Assembly: GCA_017940415.1 (NCBI GenBank)
Contig: JAGAYR010000016.1
Span: forward strand, 62,001 to 126,000
DNA: 64,000 nt
Direction: 5' to 3'
Source of the DNA: Lachnospiraceae bacterium
GTDB taxonomy: Bacteria; Bacillota; Clostridia; Lachnospirales; Lachnospiraceae
Shown here: piece by piece, positions 41,687 to 47,489 of the stretch
Layout of the letters: every line of letters begins with the position of its first letter
Numbering within the stretch: position 1 is the stretch's first letter
Program-made: the position numbers and the translations under genes
The notes under the pieces: model-generated
Databases searched by the model: none
What the model was told of the DNA's origin: nothing
The model's input: only the letters and a program-made list of their open reading frames with translations

Positions 41687-43102
41687 TTAATTCATAAGTC
41701 CTGCCACATAATACAGGATTGCACTTTCATATTCCTGCCAGATCCTGTGACTTCTTTCTACCGCACATATCAGATAGCCTTTAACATCATCATGATCTCT
41801 TACCCGTGCGATCAAAGCAGAACCAAAGCCGTTTTCTTTTAACGAAGCACCAAATACGGGTGCTGTTTTTTTTATATTTTCTACCGAACCTTCCGCAACA
41901 ACATCCTCAGTCATAAGAAGTCCTATATCGGATGCTTCGCATTCAAACTCGGAATCGTTAACAGCTTTCATCCGCATCCCGGGGCGGATATAGTAAAGAT
42001 CTTCGATCCGAAGAACTTCTTTAAGTACGGGAAAAGCCGCTTTTATCTTGCCTTCATGGGTACTTTCTTTCTCCATGCTGTTTCTCAGATCCTGCATGTC
42101 GGCGAAGACTCCTCTTCTGGTCGCAACTGCCACCTCCAGAATGCTATGTTCGCCTTTATCATAAATGGTATAGCAATTTCTGCCTCTGCTCTTTCCCACA
42201 TACAGCATTTTATCTATAAGTTCAAAGAGCTTGTCATATTCATCCGCATCCTTGGGATATGATGCACAGCCCGAAGTAGCTGTGATCATGACAGCACTGT
42301 CACCAAAATGCATTTCTTTTCTGATCATGCCGGATTTGGTATAAAGCCTTTCAAAAAATCTGTTCTTGTCTCTGCGGGATGTATTTTTCAGGTCTATCAT
42401 AAGAAGCTCATCACCGCCGAAACGACCTACGACTCCAAATCCTTCCACAGATTTTGCCAGCGCCTTGGAAACCTCGACAAGCACCTTGTCTCCTGCGGAA
42501 TGACCGAACCCGTCATTAATAGACTTGAAGTTATCAAGATCCACCATGGTAAAAGTAAAGGGCTGGTTCTCGGCAATAAGCCAGTGAACCATCTTCATTG
42601 CATAGGTTCTGTTCAAAACTCCCGTCAAAGGATCCAGCATCTCTTCAAGACTTATCTCATCGATTATTCTGTCAAAGAAATTGAATCCCCTGAGTTTATC
42701 TATGGTATATACCTGCAGATTATCCGCTACTTCATTACGTCTTATGACATCCGTCACGTCTACGAAACTGCCCACCAGACCGACGATCATACCGTTTTCG
42801 TACAAGGGGCGTTTGGAGGCGATGATATCCCTCTCCTCGCCGCGGATAAAACACTTACCCTGTACCTTATATGTGCTTTCTCCGTTCAGTACCCTGAGTT
42901 CATCCTGTTTATAAGGCTCGGGATCCGAATGCCATCCCATGTCTTCATCAGTCTTTCCGACCAGAATATCCTCGGATTCAAAACCGTAGAAATCAAGAAA
43001 GGCCCGGTTTACCCCAATGAAACGTCTGTCCTTATCTTTCCAGAACACACAGTCCTGAGAGGTGTTTATGATACTATCAAAAAGCTCAACCGTCATTTCC
43101 AT
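41687..43102 (-). CDS. PAS-GGDEF signalling protein with C-terminal extension
   Basis: This 471-residue soluble protein has a PAS domain (about 5-120), then a diguanylate cyclase domain (about 155-315) with DPLTGVLNR, DLDNFKSIND and the active-site motif GRFGGDELL (Gly226-Leu234). The consensus GGDEF is GGDEL here, and no RxxD inhibitory site is visible five residues upstream. The C-terminal region (about 320-471) looks GAF-like. It may make cyclic di-GMP or act as a sensor. The ATG follows GAGGCAGATAAAGAC. It is the first gene of a long co-directional series. Confidence 0.85.
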   Translation of the reverse strand: MEMTVELFDSIINTSQDCVFWKDKDRRFIGVNRAFLDFYGFESEDILVGKTDEDMGWHSDPEPYKQDELRVLNGESTYKVQGKCFIRGEERDIIASKRPLYENGMIVGLVGSFVDVTDVIRRNEVADNLQVYTIDKLRGFNFFDRIIDEISLEEMLDPLTGVLNRTYAMKMVHWLIAENQPFTFTMVDLDNFKSINDGFGHSAGDKVLVEVSKALAKSVEGFGVVGRFGGDELLMIDLKNTSRRDKNRFFERLYTKSGMIRKEMHFGDSAVMITATSGCASYPKDADEYDKLFELIDKMLYVGKSRGRNCYTIYDKGEHSILEVAVATRRGVFADMQDLRNSMEKESTHEGKIKAAFPVLKEVLRIEDLYYIRPGMRMKAVNDSEFECEASDIGLLMTEDVVAEGSVENIKKTAPVFGASLKENGFGSALIARVRDHDDVKGYLICAVERSHRIWQEYESAILYYVAGLMN

Positions 43103-43243: not shown

Positions 43244-44485
43244 ATGGGTAAAAGTGGCTTAAAATATGGAAAAAACGCCCGTTATACAGTAAAATATCCG
43301 TGTATGGGCAAAAATTCCGAAAGCAACAATAAAATACCCCGGAAAAGCAGCAAAAACGTCATCGAACGTATCAAAGAATCCCGCAAATTAACCACATTTC
43401 TGATCATTCTTACGGTTCTTATCGTATGCTACGCCTGCTACATCTTTTCCGATGCCAGAGAAAACGGACTCTCATTCTGGGATGTCTTCATATATAATAT
43501 GCTGGCCCTTGCAGGTAATGACTATGAGTTCACCGAAACTCCCGCCGGAAGACTTCTGGGACTTATAGTTCTCTCACTTGGAGTCCTGGCTCTCTCCACC
43601 ATAACAGGTTTCATATCATCATCACTTGTCGCCCATAATCTGAACGCCGGAAGAGGTCTTAAGAAAATGCAGAATATGAAAGAGCACATCATCATATGCG
43701 GATGGAAAAATGACATAAAGAGTCTCATCATGGGCATCCTCAGAAAAAACAAGAATCTGGACGCCTCGGACATCATACTTATAACAGGTGCGGATGACGT
43801 TAAGACACAGTCCCTGAAAGATGATCCGGATCTCAAAGATCTAAACATCCTGAAAGGTGATTTCACCGAAGAACAATCTCTCAAAAATGCCAATATTTCC
43901 TTCGCATCCAAAGTCCTCATCATCGGAGAAAACAGTGATAACCTCGATGACGAGCTTATAGATTCCAGAGTTTTCGTAACCGCTATCCTCGCAAGAAATC
44001 TCAATTCCAAATGTCACATATGTGCCCAGATACGTACCGAAAGATACCGCAATTATCTGAATGCACAGAATATCGCAGAGATCATCTATACCGAAGAATA
44101 CACCAGATACATCCTCACCACTTCCACCAACTACAGCGGCATGAGCAAAGTCATGAGTTCCTTCCTCGACAACGGCGACGGAACAAGCGTGCAGATCGAG
44201 CCCATACCGGAATCCAGAGTAGGTCATAAATACAGCGAACTGTTCGATTATTACAAGAAAGAAAAGAATATCCTGCTCCTGGGAATACTGGAGAACATGG
44301 GCGTCGAAAAAGAGATCAAGCATAACATCTTATCCGAAGCTCAAAAATCCACCAATTACGGTGAGATCATCCAGAAACTCAGAACCGTCAAATCCATGGA
44401 GACAAACGAACCCCGTTTAAATCCCGGTGACGATTACATTATCCCCTCGAACTCAGGTGCGATCATACTCGGAGAAGAAAAATGA
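43244..44485 (+). CDS. Two-helix ion channel-like protein with RCK-type domain and atypical filter
   Basis: This 413-residue protein (393 if it starts at the later ATG, 43304) has a basic N-terminus, helix 1 (KLTTFLIILTVLIVCYACY), a pore loop, helix 2 (RLLGLIVLSLGVLALSTITG) and a cytoplasmic RCK/TrkA_N-like part beginning EHIIICGW. The layout is that of a MthK-like channel, but the TVGYGD filter is replaced by LALAGND, and the Rossmann loop lacks GxGxxG. Selectivity is therefore probably not the usual potassium one. Neither start has a good ribosome binding site. It overlaps the cyclic-nucleotide-binding gene by four bases. Confidence 0.78.
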   Translation: MGKSGLKYGKNARYTVKYPCMGKNSESNNKIPRKSSKNVIERIKESRKLTTFLIILTVLIVCYACYIFSDARENGLSFWDVFIYNMLALAGNDYEFTETPAGRLLGLIVLSLGVLALSTITGFISSSLVAHNLNAGRGLKKMQNMKEHIIICGWKNDIKSLIMGILRKNKNLDASDIILITGADDVKTQSLKDDPDLKDLNILKGDFTEEQSLKNANISFASKVLIIGENSDNLDDELIDSRVFVTAILARNLNSKCHICAQIRTERYRNYLNAQNIAEIIYTEEYTRYILTTSTNYSGMSKVMSSFLDNGDGTSVQIEPIPESRVGHKYSELFDYYKKEKNILLLGILENMGVEKEIKHNILSEAQKSTNYGEIIQKLRTVKSMETNEPRLNPGDDYIIPSNSGAIILGEEK

Positions 44486-44967
44486 CTAATTATAAGGAAA
44501 AACTGAAATCATTTCCACTGTTCGGCAATATCTCTGACAAAGATCTAGATGATTTTGCAACCCTTCTGTCCGAAGTCAAAGCTCCCGCGGGAACGGATAT
44601 CCTAACGGAGGGTGAGACCGGTTCGGACATGTATTTCCTGATGGAAGGCAAAGTCGACATCATTAAAACCACCGTATTCGGCGAGAGGTTCATCTGTGCA
44701 AGTCTCGGAAGTGAGACCGGATGCGTATTCGGTGAAATGGCACTTCTCGACAGCGATGAAAGATCCGCAACGGTCAGAGCAAGAGAAGCCTGTGTCACGC
44801 TCAAGATAACGAGAAATGATTTTGACAAATTTGCGGAAACCCACCCTTCAGCAGGAGTATCACTCCTCAAATTTATCGGGATCAATCTTGTCCGCAACAT
44901 TAGGAGGGAAAACGAGAATTTAAACCTTGTCTATCAGGCACTGATAGAAGAAATAGAATCAAACTAA
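44482..44967 (+). CDS. Stand-alone cyclic nucleotide-binding domain protein
   Basis: This is a 161-residue cNMP-binding (CAP_ED) domain: a beta-roll with GTDILTEGETGSDMYFLMEGKVDI. The phosphate-binding cassette is FGEMALLDSDERSATV (residues 83-98), including the Glu and Arg needed for cyclic nucleotide contact. No DNA-binding domain follows, unlike CRP; there is only a short C-terminal helix. It is coupled by ATGA to the channel gene, so it may act as a detached regulatory subunit of the channel. The nucleotide is not known. Confidence 0.85.
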   Translation: MTNYKEKLKSFPLFGNISDKDLDDFATLLSEVKAPAGTDILTEGETGSDMYFLMEGKVDIIKTTVFGERFICASLGSETGCVFGEMALLDSDERSATVRAREACVTLKITRNDFDKFAETHPSAGVSLLKFIGINLVRNIRRENENLNLVYQALIEEIESN

Positions 44968-45008
44968 GATCTGCTTAATACATAAATAATTTCGGGGGTA
45001 TTTTTTTA

Positions 45009-47489
45009 ATGTACAGAGTTGATGAACTTCTTTTGATCGAACTTCTTACCTATATGCCGGGCACCGATCCGCTCATTTCCATTCTGGATGCGGAAGGCAT
45101 GACTGTAGGCGATTATCTCAGACAGATTGACCTGAATGCTCTTGATGACGAATTCACTTATTCTACCCAGATGAACGGATTCGATTTCAGAAACATCATT
45201 ATGGCCATTCTGAAAAATCCTTCGGTTTCCGAATCACGAATTCTCGAATCACACCTCGATAAAGCATACGGCGCAGGCGGTGGAATCTCCATTGTCGTCG
45301 TAAACGAAAAAGAAGAAGCGGATGAAAGCGGAAAGCACGAAGCCGTCGTAGCTTTCAGAGGAACCGCGGACAGAGAATGGACGGATGACTTTGAGGGAGC
45401 CGGACAGGTTGATTCACTTCAGCAGATAAATGCCCTCGAATGGTACAAACAGGCTTACGGCAAAAACAATCTCGATAAATATTTTGTGACTGTCATCGGA
45501 CATTCAAAGGGCGGAAACAAAGCAAAATATATCACCATCCTTAATGACACACCTGACAGATGTGTCTCTTTTGACGGACAGGGATTCTCCGATAAATTCA
45601 TCGATCATTATAAAAAGAAGATCATTGCCCGCCAGAGCCTTATCTCCAATCACAATATCGATTACGATTATGTCAACATTCTCATGAACGATATCGGCGA
45701 GAAGACTTATTACATCGGATACGATTACGGTAAGTTCGGCTTCTCCGAATCCCATGCTCCCAACACATTCTTCGATTTTGCGGAAAACGGAGAATACACC
45801 ATGCGCGTCAACCCGAACGGTCAGCGCCCCGAGATGCAGATCGTCGACCAGTTCATCAACAGCATGATCCGTTCCGCAGTCAGTGAAAAAGAAAGCGAAG
45901 AAACCAACAGGCTTGTTGGAATGATAGTCGAAAAAGGCTTTGCGCTTTCCAACGGCGCAAGCCTGTGTGATTTCATTGCTTTTCTGTGCGATATGATCGG
46001 CGATCCCAAGTACTCCGACAATGTTGCTTATCTGCTGGCATATTGCATCTTATACTCCCGCAAGAACCCGAATCTTCTCGAGTCTTTCAGAAGTATCATG
46101 ACCGCATTTAATGCTCTGGATATCCTGAAAGTCATCGATATGGTTGAAGATCTTATCAGTTCCAGAAAACTCAATGCACTCCTGGGACTCACGGACTTCC
46201 TGGTTGTTCATGTAAACAGACCCATCACAAAGAGCATCAGAAATTTCGTTAAGAAAAAATACGATGTTGACCTTAAACCCGAACAGATAGGCCGCATCCT
46301 TCAGATAGCTACCCTCACCCGTCAGATGGTTAATTCTCTTGAGATCAACATGGACGGTTCGGACATTACCATTGAAGATGCCTTCCTTACAGAAGACGAA
46401 CTCAAAGAATTTGTTCTCCCGGGCAATCTCAATATCGTTGTCCTTGCAGGCGGTCTTTCCAACGAAAGAAATCTCTCTCTCAAAACGGGAGTTACCGTGG
46501 CGGATATACTCAGAAACCGCGGAAACAATGTTATACTGCTCGATTCGTTCATGGGTTATTCGGAAAACGAAGAACTTCTCCCGGATGACGTATTTGATAA
46601 TGCTGAGAAATACACTCTCAATCCCGGCGATATCCCCAATGAGATCCCCGATCTGTGGGCAACCAGAAAAAGAAGAAAAGACCAGTCCAATGCATATTTC
46701 GGCCCCAACGTACTTCAGATATGCAGGCAGTCAGATCTCATTTTCATAGCTCTTCACGGTGCAGAGGGCGAAAACGGAAAAGTTCAGGCCGCATTTGATC
46801 TCCTGGGTCTCGACTATACCGGATGCGATTATTTCTCATCCGCGATCTCCTCCAACAAAGGAGCGGCTAAACAACTTATGCGCACAATGGGTGTTCCCGT
46901 ACCCGACGGCTATACCATCAAGAAAGGTTCATCCATCCCCAATCCCACGCAGCACGGACTTGAATTTCCTGTCATCGTCAAGCCCAACAACGGCGGAATC
47001 GGCGTAGGAATATCAATCGCAAGCGACATAACCGCATATGAAAAAGCAGTTAAAAATGCATTCAGATGGGATACCGAAGTTCTCATAGAGGAATATTTCA
47101 TGGGAAGAGAATTTGCCGTATGTACCGTGGAAGGAAAAGCCCTTCCCGTTCTTGAAAAGCTTCCCCTTGAAACAGCGGACAAAGAAAAAGGCCTCACCAT
47201 GAGCGGTGAGACTGCCAATAAATGTCCTGCCGAAATCCCCGACGAACTTGCCAAGGCACTTCAGAAAGCTGCGGAAGATGCAGCATTTGCATTGGGTGTA
47301 AATGCATACGCCAAGATGGATTTCATTGTTGCAGCCGATATGAAGAGCTTTGTCTGTCTGGAATGTGATTCACTTCCCCAGCTTTATCCCGATTCACATC
47401 TCGTAATATCGGCAAAGGCCGCCGGAAGAAGCTTCGGCGACCTCTGTGATAAGATTATGGAGATGAGTCTTGTTAAGAAATTCGGATGA
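45009..47489 (+). CDS. Lipase-like (DUF2974/Mbeg1-type) domain fused to a D-Ala-D-Ala ligase-like ATP-grasp domain
   Basis: This 826-residue protein has two halves. Residues 1 to about 300 are an alpha/beta hydrolase of the Mbeg1-like/DUF2974 type, with VVAFRGTAD and nucleophile motif GHSKGGNKA (Ser166). A helical region follows. Residues from about 475 to 826 are an ATP-grasp ligase similar to Ddl: VVLAGGLSNERNLSLKTG, HGAEGENGKVQ, FPVIVKPNNGGIGVGIS and EEYFMGREFAV. The usual metal-binding ExN near the C-terminus reads ECD (ECDSLPQL), and the ER replaces the usual EH. The product is therefore probably not D-Ala-D-Ala. It lies 41 bases after the cNMP gene, on the same strand. Confidence 0.8.
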   Translation: MYRVDELLLIELLTYMPGTDPLISILDAEGMTVGDYLRQIDLNALDDEFTYSTQMNGFDFRNIIMAILKNPSVSESRILESHLDKAYGAGGGISIVVVNEKEEADESGKHEAVVAFRGTADREWTDDFEGAGQVDSLQQINALEWYKQAYGKNNLDKYFVTVIGHSKGGNKAKYITILNDTPDRCVSFDGQGFSDKFIDHYKKKIIARQSLISNHNIDYDYVNILMNDIGEKTYYIGYDYGKFGFSESHAPNTFFDFAENGEYTMRVNPNGQRPEMQIVDQFINSMIRSAVSEKESEETNRLVGMIVEKGFALSNGASLCDFIAFLCDMIGDPKYSDNVAYLLAYCILYSRKNPNLLESFRSIMTAFNALDILKVIDMVEDLISSRKLNALLGLTDFLVVHVNRPITKSIRNFVKKKYDVDLKPEQIGRILQIATLTRQMVNSLEINMDGSDITIEDAFLTEDELKEFVLPGNLNIVVLAGGLSNERNLSLKTGVTVADILRNRGNNVILLDSFMGYSENEELLPDDVFDNAEKYTLNPGDIPNEIPDLWATRKRRKDQSNAYFGPNVLQICRQSDLIFIALHGAEGENGKVQAAFDLLGLDYTGCDYFSSAISSNKGAAKQLMRTMGVPVPDGYTIKKGSSIPNPTQHGLEFPVIVKPNNGGIGVGISIASDITAYEKAVKNAFRWDTEVLIEEYFMGREFAVCTVEGKALPVLEKLPLETADKEKGLTMSGETANKCPAEIPDELAKALQKAAEDAAFALGVNAYAKMDFIVAADMKSFVCLECDSLPQLYPDSHLVISAKAAGRSFGDLCDKIMEMSLVKKFG

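Follow-up and report, generated by a model that had tools for sequence, protein, structure and literature searches.

The stretch of DNA analysed here (in the following the window) comprises 64,000 nt of a Lachnospiraceae bacterium (contig JAGAYR010000016.1, positions 62,001 to 126,000). It harbours three consecutive genes encoding a channel with RCK domains, a free cyclic nucleotide-binding domain (CNBD) protein and a lipase-like/Ddl-like fusion enzyme, which an earlier sequence-only reading had put forward as a possible new signalling system. The layout given there agrees with the open reading frames (ORFs): all three lie on one strand, the channel and CNBD genes overlap by 4 bases (ATGA) and 41 bases separate the CNBD gene from the fusion. 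The MG.. start methionine of close channel orthologues aligns with residue 21 of the longer ORF. Hence 43304 is a likelier start of the channel gene than 43244. Coordinates are summarized in Table 1; L and G numbers denote loci and genomes.

Table 1. Genes and features of the cassette in window coordinates.
Feature	Position	Strand	Basis or remark
Channel gene with two transmembrane (TM) helices and RCK domain (2TM-RCK), 393 aa	43304..44485	+	Pfam, orthologue starts; ORF readable from 43244
Pore filter position LALAGND, residues 67-73, replacing TxGYGD	43502..43522	+	Alignment with GYGD homologues
48-residue RCK_C segment, residues 327-374	44282..44425	+	Common to CNBD-paired channels; candidate docking site
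Free CNBD protein, 161 aa	44482..44967	+	Pfam
Canonical phosphate-binding cassette FGEMALLDSDERSAT, residues 83-97	44728..44772	+	
Conserved C-terminal helix/tail, residues 136-161, ..NLVYQALIEEIESN	44887..44964	+	
Fusion of lipase-like alpha/beta hydrolase and Ddl-like ATP-grasp ligase, 826 aa	45009..47489	+	
Ser166 of GHSKGG, predicted hydrolase nucleophile	45504..45506	+	Invariant in 26 aligned fusions
Ddl-like ATP-grasp ligase part, residues 474-824, altered substrate pocket	46428..47480	+	

The channel matches a Slo-like RCK domain (PF22614, 1.9e-12) and TrkA_N (1.9e-5) in Pfam; its Ion_trans_2 match is below cut-off (E 0.59). Two TM helices with a pore helix, followed by the RCK N and C lobes, give it an MthK-like layout, and AlphaFold2 predicts, with moderate confidence, helices at residues 26-48, 58-69 and 80-112 followed by a Rossmann-like fold. 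For the second protein Pfam returns cNMP_binding alone (1.6e-18) and no DNA-binding domain, in line with the earlier description. The third matches Mbeg1-like (1.1e-7) as well as both D-Ala-D-Ala ligase domains, N and C (PF07478 2.2e-23, PF01820 3e-18), and is thus the lipase-like/Ddl-like fusion it had been taken for. NCBIfam adds only sub-cut-off matches to the three proteins, the fusion staying below the cut-off of each of 25 models, among the matches listed.

Conservation was evaluated in a sample of 143 related genomes, 31 of which belong to the genus of the window (its own genome included). The channel is present in 15 of the 143 (1e-10). The same 15 genomes carry the CNBD protein at 7.4e-56 or better, with weak matches in 13 others, and the fusion, whose copy in G020 is found as two pieces on two contigs. 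Neither the channel nor the full fusion occurs outside the genus in this sample. Across the genus loci the trio keeps its order, with at least four kinds of flank. Since the same genomes carry all three genes, side by side and in an order that is kept with changing flanks, their co-occurrence is far beyond chance. The sequence-only reading had named adjacency in this strain only as an outcome that would speak against a system; instead the set is conserved in many genomes.

A wider scan, in which the channel alignment was run against a single genome per species, yielded 60 loci. They derive from rumen and gut Lachnospiraceae, from records titled Acholeplasmatales, Bacillales, Oscillospiraceae and Clostridia, from four spirochaetes and from one Delongbacteria; the records so titled are mostly metagenome bins and their titles may err. 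Directly downstream of the channel lies the CNBD gene in 59 of the 60 loci; only L139, which is cut by a contig end, lacks it. Next to the pair comes the fusion in 43 of the 44 loci L095-L138. Here L126 runs off its contig, L120 shows only the hydrolase part near a contig end, and some other loci are cut by contig ends. No fusion is found at L140-L154, eight of which (L143, L145, L146, L148, L150-L152 and L154) extend more than 7 kb past the CNBD. Apart from pair and fusion, clustering of the neighbours reveals nothing that recurs in more than 10 of the 60 loci.

Among 296 Spirochaetota genomes, 92 match a broad channel profile at 1e-20 (108 match rows). We viewed 70 loci, 30 plus a further 40, mostly higher-scoring, and subsequently a second set of 20. 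One of the 70, L207, duplicates L152 of the wider scan. The CNBD gene adjoins the channel in 68 of the 70. One of the two unpaired loci, L276, has a short channel without the RCK_C segment described below; the other, L258, is considered further on. L243 contains two channel and CNBD pairs back to back. In 391 genomes of the class of the window, seven matches reach 1e-20 beyond its own. All seven are 2TM-RCK channels of the ordinary kind with TVGYGD, and their flanks of about 1.4 kb contain no CNBD. Because the CNBD accompanies the channel in 59 of 60 loci while the fusion is limited to one clade, the channel and CNBD pair constitutes the conserved, older core of the cassette. The fusion was added later, in part of the Bacillota clade.

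The CNBD exhibits a canonical phosphate-binding cassette with the typical G, E, R and A/S residues (FGEMALLDSDERSA in the window). Across 126 CNBDs, G is conserved in all 126 and E and R in 123 each; the exceptions are the CNBDs of L240-L242 treated below, besides the cut sequence of L227. In all 15 cassette-positive genus genomes the free CNBD is the sole PF00027 match above 50 bits. Two cassette-negative genomes also show such matches: the one in G005 (above 50 bits) has no channel beside it and reaches only 30 bits with the CNBD profile, and G026 has matches above 60 bits. In L137 and L148 a CHASE2 domain protein with class III cyclase is encoded in the same orientation as the pair and no more than about 6 kb away, and identity to the L148 cyclase places relatives near the pair in L154 (98%) and L289 (63%) as well. 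Between pair and cyclase a FecR domain protein is located in L148 and, judged by eye, a FecR-like ORF in L289. The genome of the window encodes one CHASE2 class III cyclase elsewhere, beside a FecR-like ORF. It is 48% identical to that of L137 and keeps, in its catalytic stretch, LDKF and GDTVNTAAR, which are typical of adenylate cyclases. The cyclase family PF00211 is found in 10 of 11 genomes of distant pair-bearing loci. In L137 a second CNBD-bearing protein (502 aa, L137:5912-7417) lies after the fusion and before the cyclase.

Near-invariant pairing, an intact cyclic nucleotide pocket and a cyclase close by in three lineages argue for an ion flow controlled by a cyclic nucleotide. This part of the ligand-gated membrane response proposed in the sequence-only reading is retained by inference. 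Its framing as a trio gives way to a pair that mostly has a K+ filter.

A candidate for the contact between both proteins is the RCK_C segment. Its length was counted between two RCK_C landmarks in 140 aligned unsplit channels (above 150 bits, split or short ORFs left out, eight unpaired controls among them). It measures 46-51 residues in 129 channels, all of which have a CNBD partner except L139 and L258 (127 of 129). The remaining 11 have 11-17 residues and none is paired. This group consists of L276, the seven controls from the class of the window and, from three tandem loci, the upstream channels, behind which a second channel with segment follows. The two channels of the tandem loci L258-L260, both without GYG, may form heteromers.

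For the second set of 20 loci the pairing was predicted in advance. All eight channels with the segment (45-51 residues) were paired and none of the 12 others. Seven high scorers matched the prediction and 12 of 13 low scorers lacked both features as expected; L302, expected without both, has segment and CNBD, and its channel ORF is split in two. Five of the 12 others cannot serve as clean controls: L296-L299, 650-aa proteins of another architecture for which a segment length is meaningless (in L297 the opposite strand carries a CNBD ORF at a distance of about 1 kb, unpaired), and L300 with 32 residues at this position. A tree of 110 channels was built with filter and segment columns removed, using a quick method with SH-like approximate likelihood ratio test (SH-aLRT) support only. 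It separates the segment-bearing clade from eight controls by a branch of 99% SH-aLRT and requires the segment to have changed twice, being gained once and lost once in tandem members.

AlphaFold2 folds the segment with moderate confidence into a helical hairpin (335-348 and 352-364), and we propose the segment as the part that holds the CNBD. Covariation of the segment with the CNBD tail first looked positive but was no stronger than with partners shuffled within clades, and was dropped as docking evidence. As the shuffles gave the same result, covariation lends docking no independent support; it neither supports nor refutes it.

With moderate confidence we read the first two genes as a two-component channel gated by cyclic AMP (cAMP), to which the fusion was added in part of the clade. 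Several observations weigh against this, beginning with the covariation result. The AlphaFold2 model of the channel is only moderate (pLDDT 74.5, pTM 0.50). A cyclase like that of the window genome lies near the pair in only four of 131 loci (three lineages), in a search where most Spirochaetota stretches reach about 2 kb to each side. The L145 genome bears the pair but has no PF00211 match, and this family occurs in 13 of 15 cassette-positive versus 11 of 16 cassette-negative genus genomes, so that cyclase presence does not follow the cassette within the genus. L258 has a channel with segment and no CNBD in the stretch fetched, where two channels are located. The closely similar spirochaetal CNBDs of L240-L242 lost pocket residues (E to K, R to H). 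Finally, the channel is split in two in G010 and reduced to a 62-aa remnant in G007, with CNBD and fusion whole in both. The degenerate pocket of L240-L242 (FGKAALLGEDFHGSS) still stands beside a GYGD channel, and the sensor may have changed its ligand there.

The G007 remnant and the lack of covariation support for a channel-CNBD contact would also suit a CNBD that does not gate the channel, and is instead a cAMP-dependent regulator of the fusion or of something else, placed in the operon for co-expression. However, the fusion is absent from distant loci that keep channel and CNBD, so that the CNBD tracks the channel and not the enzyme. Moreover, RCK segment and CNBD pairing coincide in both locus sets. 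We consider a non-gating CNBD unlikely.

As the sequence-only reading had noted, LALAGND occupies the selectivity filter position of a two-helix channel-RCK protein. The alignment bears this out, the columns being TVGYGD or TTGYGD in spirochaetal homologues. The window channel thus departs from the TxGYGD filter of 2TM-RCK K+ channels, while in the 70 Spirochaetota loci 60 of the 73 channels aligned have GYGD. In the tree GYG changed twice, once in 12 spirochaetal rows (AGYFDY-like) and once in 34 rows of Bacillota loci, which carry GRGFTD, FGADFA, FGQD and xGNDY. The GYG row nearest to the Bacillota clade, L246, sits on a long branch. The CNBD tree likewise needs two changes for the filter label of the partner channel. 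Since the tree places it inside a clade with GYGD relatives, LALAGND reads as a derived K+ channel filter, a derived state and not a defining property of the system.

The twofold loss of GYG would fit a LALAGND channel that is a non-conducting, membrane-anchored RCK/CNBD sensor controlling the fusion, and the tandem spirochaetal loci with non-GYG channels, one of each pair also without the segment, point in the same direction. On the other hand, the filter is GND in 42 of 43 aligned channels of L095-L138 and GQD in the remaining one, and pore-region and TM2 residues are invariant within the genus. This looks like selection on the pore, and makes a non-conducting sensor rather improbable. With its filter changed to LALAGND, the pore probably passes other or mixed cations.

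The motif also resembles the filter AD(S/A)GNHA of CASTOR, in which D265 is critical (PMC6697748). A-G-N is common to both and the RCK N-lobe matches the CASTOR chain 6o6j (E 3.9e-14), as would be the case for a CASTOR/POLLUX-type Ca2+ channel. However, BK and MthK match better among the PDB profiles, and the window channel has Leu at the position of D265 and its Asp after GN. The tree, which contains no CASTOR sequence, sets the filter inside the 2TM-RCK clade with GYGD relatives. In addition, the 650-aa spirochaetal proteins of L296-L299 look CASTOR-like by eye and have no paired CNBD, with the qualification given above for L297. On filter, architecture and PDB ranking we reject a CASTOR relative as very unlikely. 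On present evidence the ancestry of the window channel differs from CASTOR/POLLUX/DMI1, and the likeness of the filters is probably convergent.

The fusion carries a GxSxG nucleophile elbow (GHSKGG) in its hydrolase half. S166, D228 and H249 are invariant in 26 fusions and would form the catalytic triad. The ligase half shows the ATP-grasp fold (PF07478, PF01820) with ATP-grasp residues kept, and reaches 47% identity with stand-alone Ddl family genes, several of which adjoin ORFs looking like MurF by eye. From these relatives we took the signature YARxDF and E.NTLPGMT..SL, presumably the conserved D-Ala pocket. The fusion instead has YAKMDF and ECDSLPQLYPDSHL. A separate Ddl-like gene exists in the genome of the window. 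By analogy with the bifunctional glutathionylspermidine synthetase/amidase, our guess is that the fusion makes and breaks one amide or ester bond. The effector role suggested in the sequence-only reading would apply to a lineage-limited addition, whose functional link to the pair is drawn from gene order alone. In L282 a stand-alone lipase-like protein (L282:1506-3182, minus strand) lies beside a kinase-like ORF and small WXG100-like ORFs, as judged by eye.

PADLOC profiles match the CNBD protein (PycTIR 2.1e-17, TIR effectors, PycC 4.3e-4), which would be in keeping with a Pycsar-like anti-phage system. However, every match covers the CNBD only, at most residues 25-146, and the protein has no TIR or cyclase domain. 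The combination of PycC cyclase and TIR/TM effector is not present, and a channel found in 92 of 296 Spirochaetota genomes appears more household-like than a patchy defence gene. A Pycsar-like function was rejected as scarcely credible.

As to the flanks, a GGDEF gene (41687-43102, minus strand) was rejected as part of the system; among the genus loci mapped, just three (the window, L020 and L021) have it next to the cassette. One sub-lineage shows a divergent 478-488 aa protein next to the cassette (L023:3450-4916, minus strand, also L028 and L032) with an N-terminus that is channel-like by eye, and a RyR domain in the L023 copy (PF02026, 1.2e-6). A 231-aa protein is encoded between CNBD and fusion in 10 of the 60 loci. 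For its L106 copy (L106:9739-10431) Pfam returns nothing at 0.01.

Gene order, conservation, pairing rule, motifs and tree are the observations on which the following model is built; subunit number, cAMP binding, docking, gating, ion selectivity and enzyme chemistry are its predictions. Four subunits with two helices each would form a pore on top of an RCK gating ring. The separate CNBD protein would bind cAMP and dock on this ring, most likely via the helical hairpin of the RCK C-lobe and its own conserved C-terminal helix. The cAMP would be provided by the CHASE2-type class III cyclase encoded elsewhere in the window genome. The ancestral pore is predicted to conduct K+ and the LALAGND pore of this lineage probably other or mixed cations. 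The third gene, gained in part of the clade, would encode a Ddl ligase of the cell-wall type that was duplicated and joined to a lipase-like hydrolase; its product probably makes and breaks one bond in an amino acid-containing compound under the same regulation.

We give an even chance to the wider picture, in which split cAMP-gated channels, composed of an RCK channel with docking hairpin and a free CNBD subunit, form a widespread and so far undescribed family across Spirochaetota, Bacillota and Delongbacteria. Its pore would have departed from K+ selectivity twice, and in rumen Lachnospiraceae and neighbours it would have become coupled to a ligase-hydrolase, resulting in a cyclase-to-ion-to-metabolite circuit. 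If so, cyclic nucleotide gating also arose by combining an RCK channel with a free sensor, apart from the fused design of CNG/HCN channels, and the pair would be a natural system for studying the control of an RCK ring by a detachable CNBD. As the K+ filter was left twice independently in one family, its members would represent a natural series for selectivity change. A concrete non-transcriptional cAMP target would moreover be gained for many spirochaetes and gut Firmicutes, in which such targets are poorly known.

In the literature, which was covered in part, we recognised no description of a channel with a separate CNBD partner, in agreement with the earlier statement that no described system with this set was known. 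SthK and MloK1 (mll3241) likewise link a canonical CNBD to a cation pore, and their CNBDs are among the PDB matches of the second gene. Channels of this type have voltage sensor-type helices and the CNBD in the same chain as the pore, whereas the system described here combines 2TM and RCK with a CNBD encoded by an overlapping separate gene, and by separate ORFs in the paired loci. MthK and Slo1/BK, the best PDB matches of the channel, share pore and RCK gating ring. They are gated by Ca2+ bound in the ring and to our knowledge have no partner CNBD; their filter is GYG and their profile matches end before the 48-residue segment. TrkH-TrkA resembles our system in that the ligand-sensing part is a separate cytosolic protein, which also applies to KtrB-KtrA. 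In those systems, however, it is the RCK ring that is separate, with ADP/ATP as ligand, whereas here the RCK domain belongs to the channel and the CNBD is separate. CASTOR/POLLUX/DMI1 have a non-GYG filter with AGN and an RCK-type ring too but four predicted TM segments and a larger soluble part (PMC6697748). The C-terminal half of the third gene is a Ddl homologue, differing from Ddl by its fusion to a hydrolase and by the changes of the EANTLPGMTPTSL region to ECDSLPQLYPDSHL and of YAR to YAK. Taken together, the parts are known, and the split arrangement of RCK channel and CNBD with its segment appears to be new.

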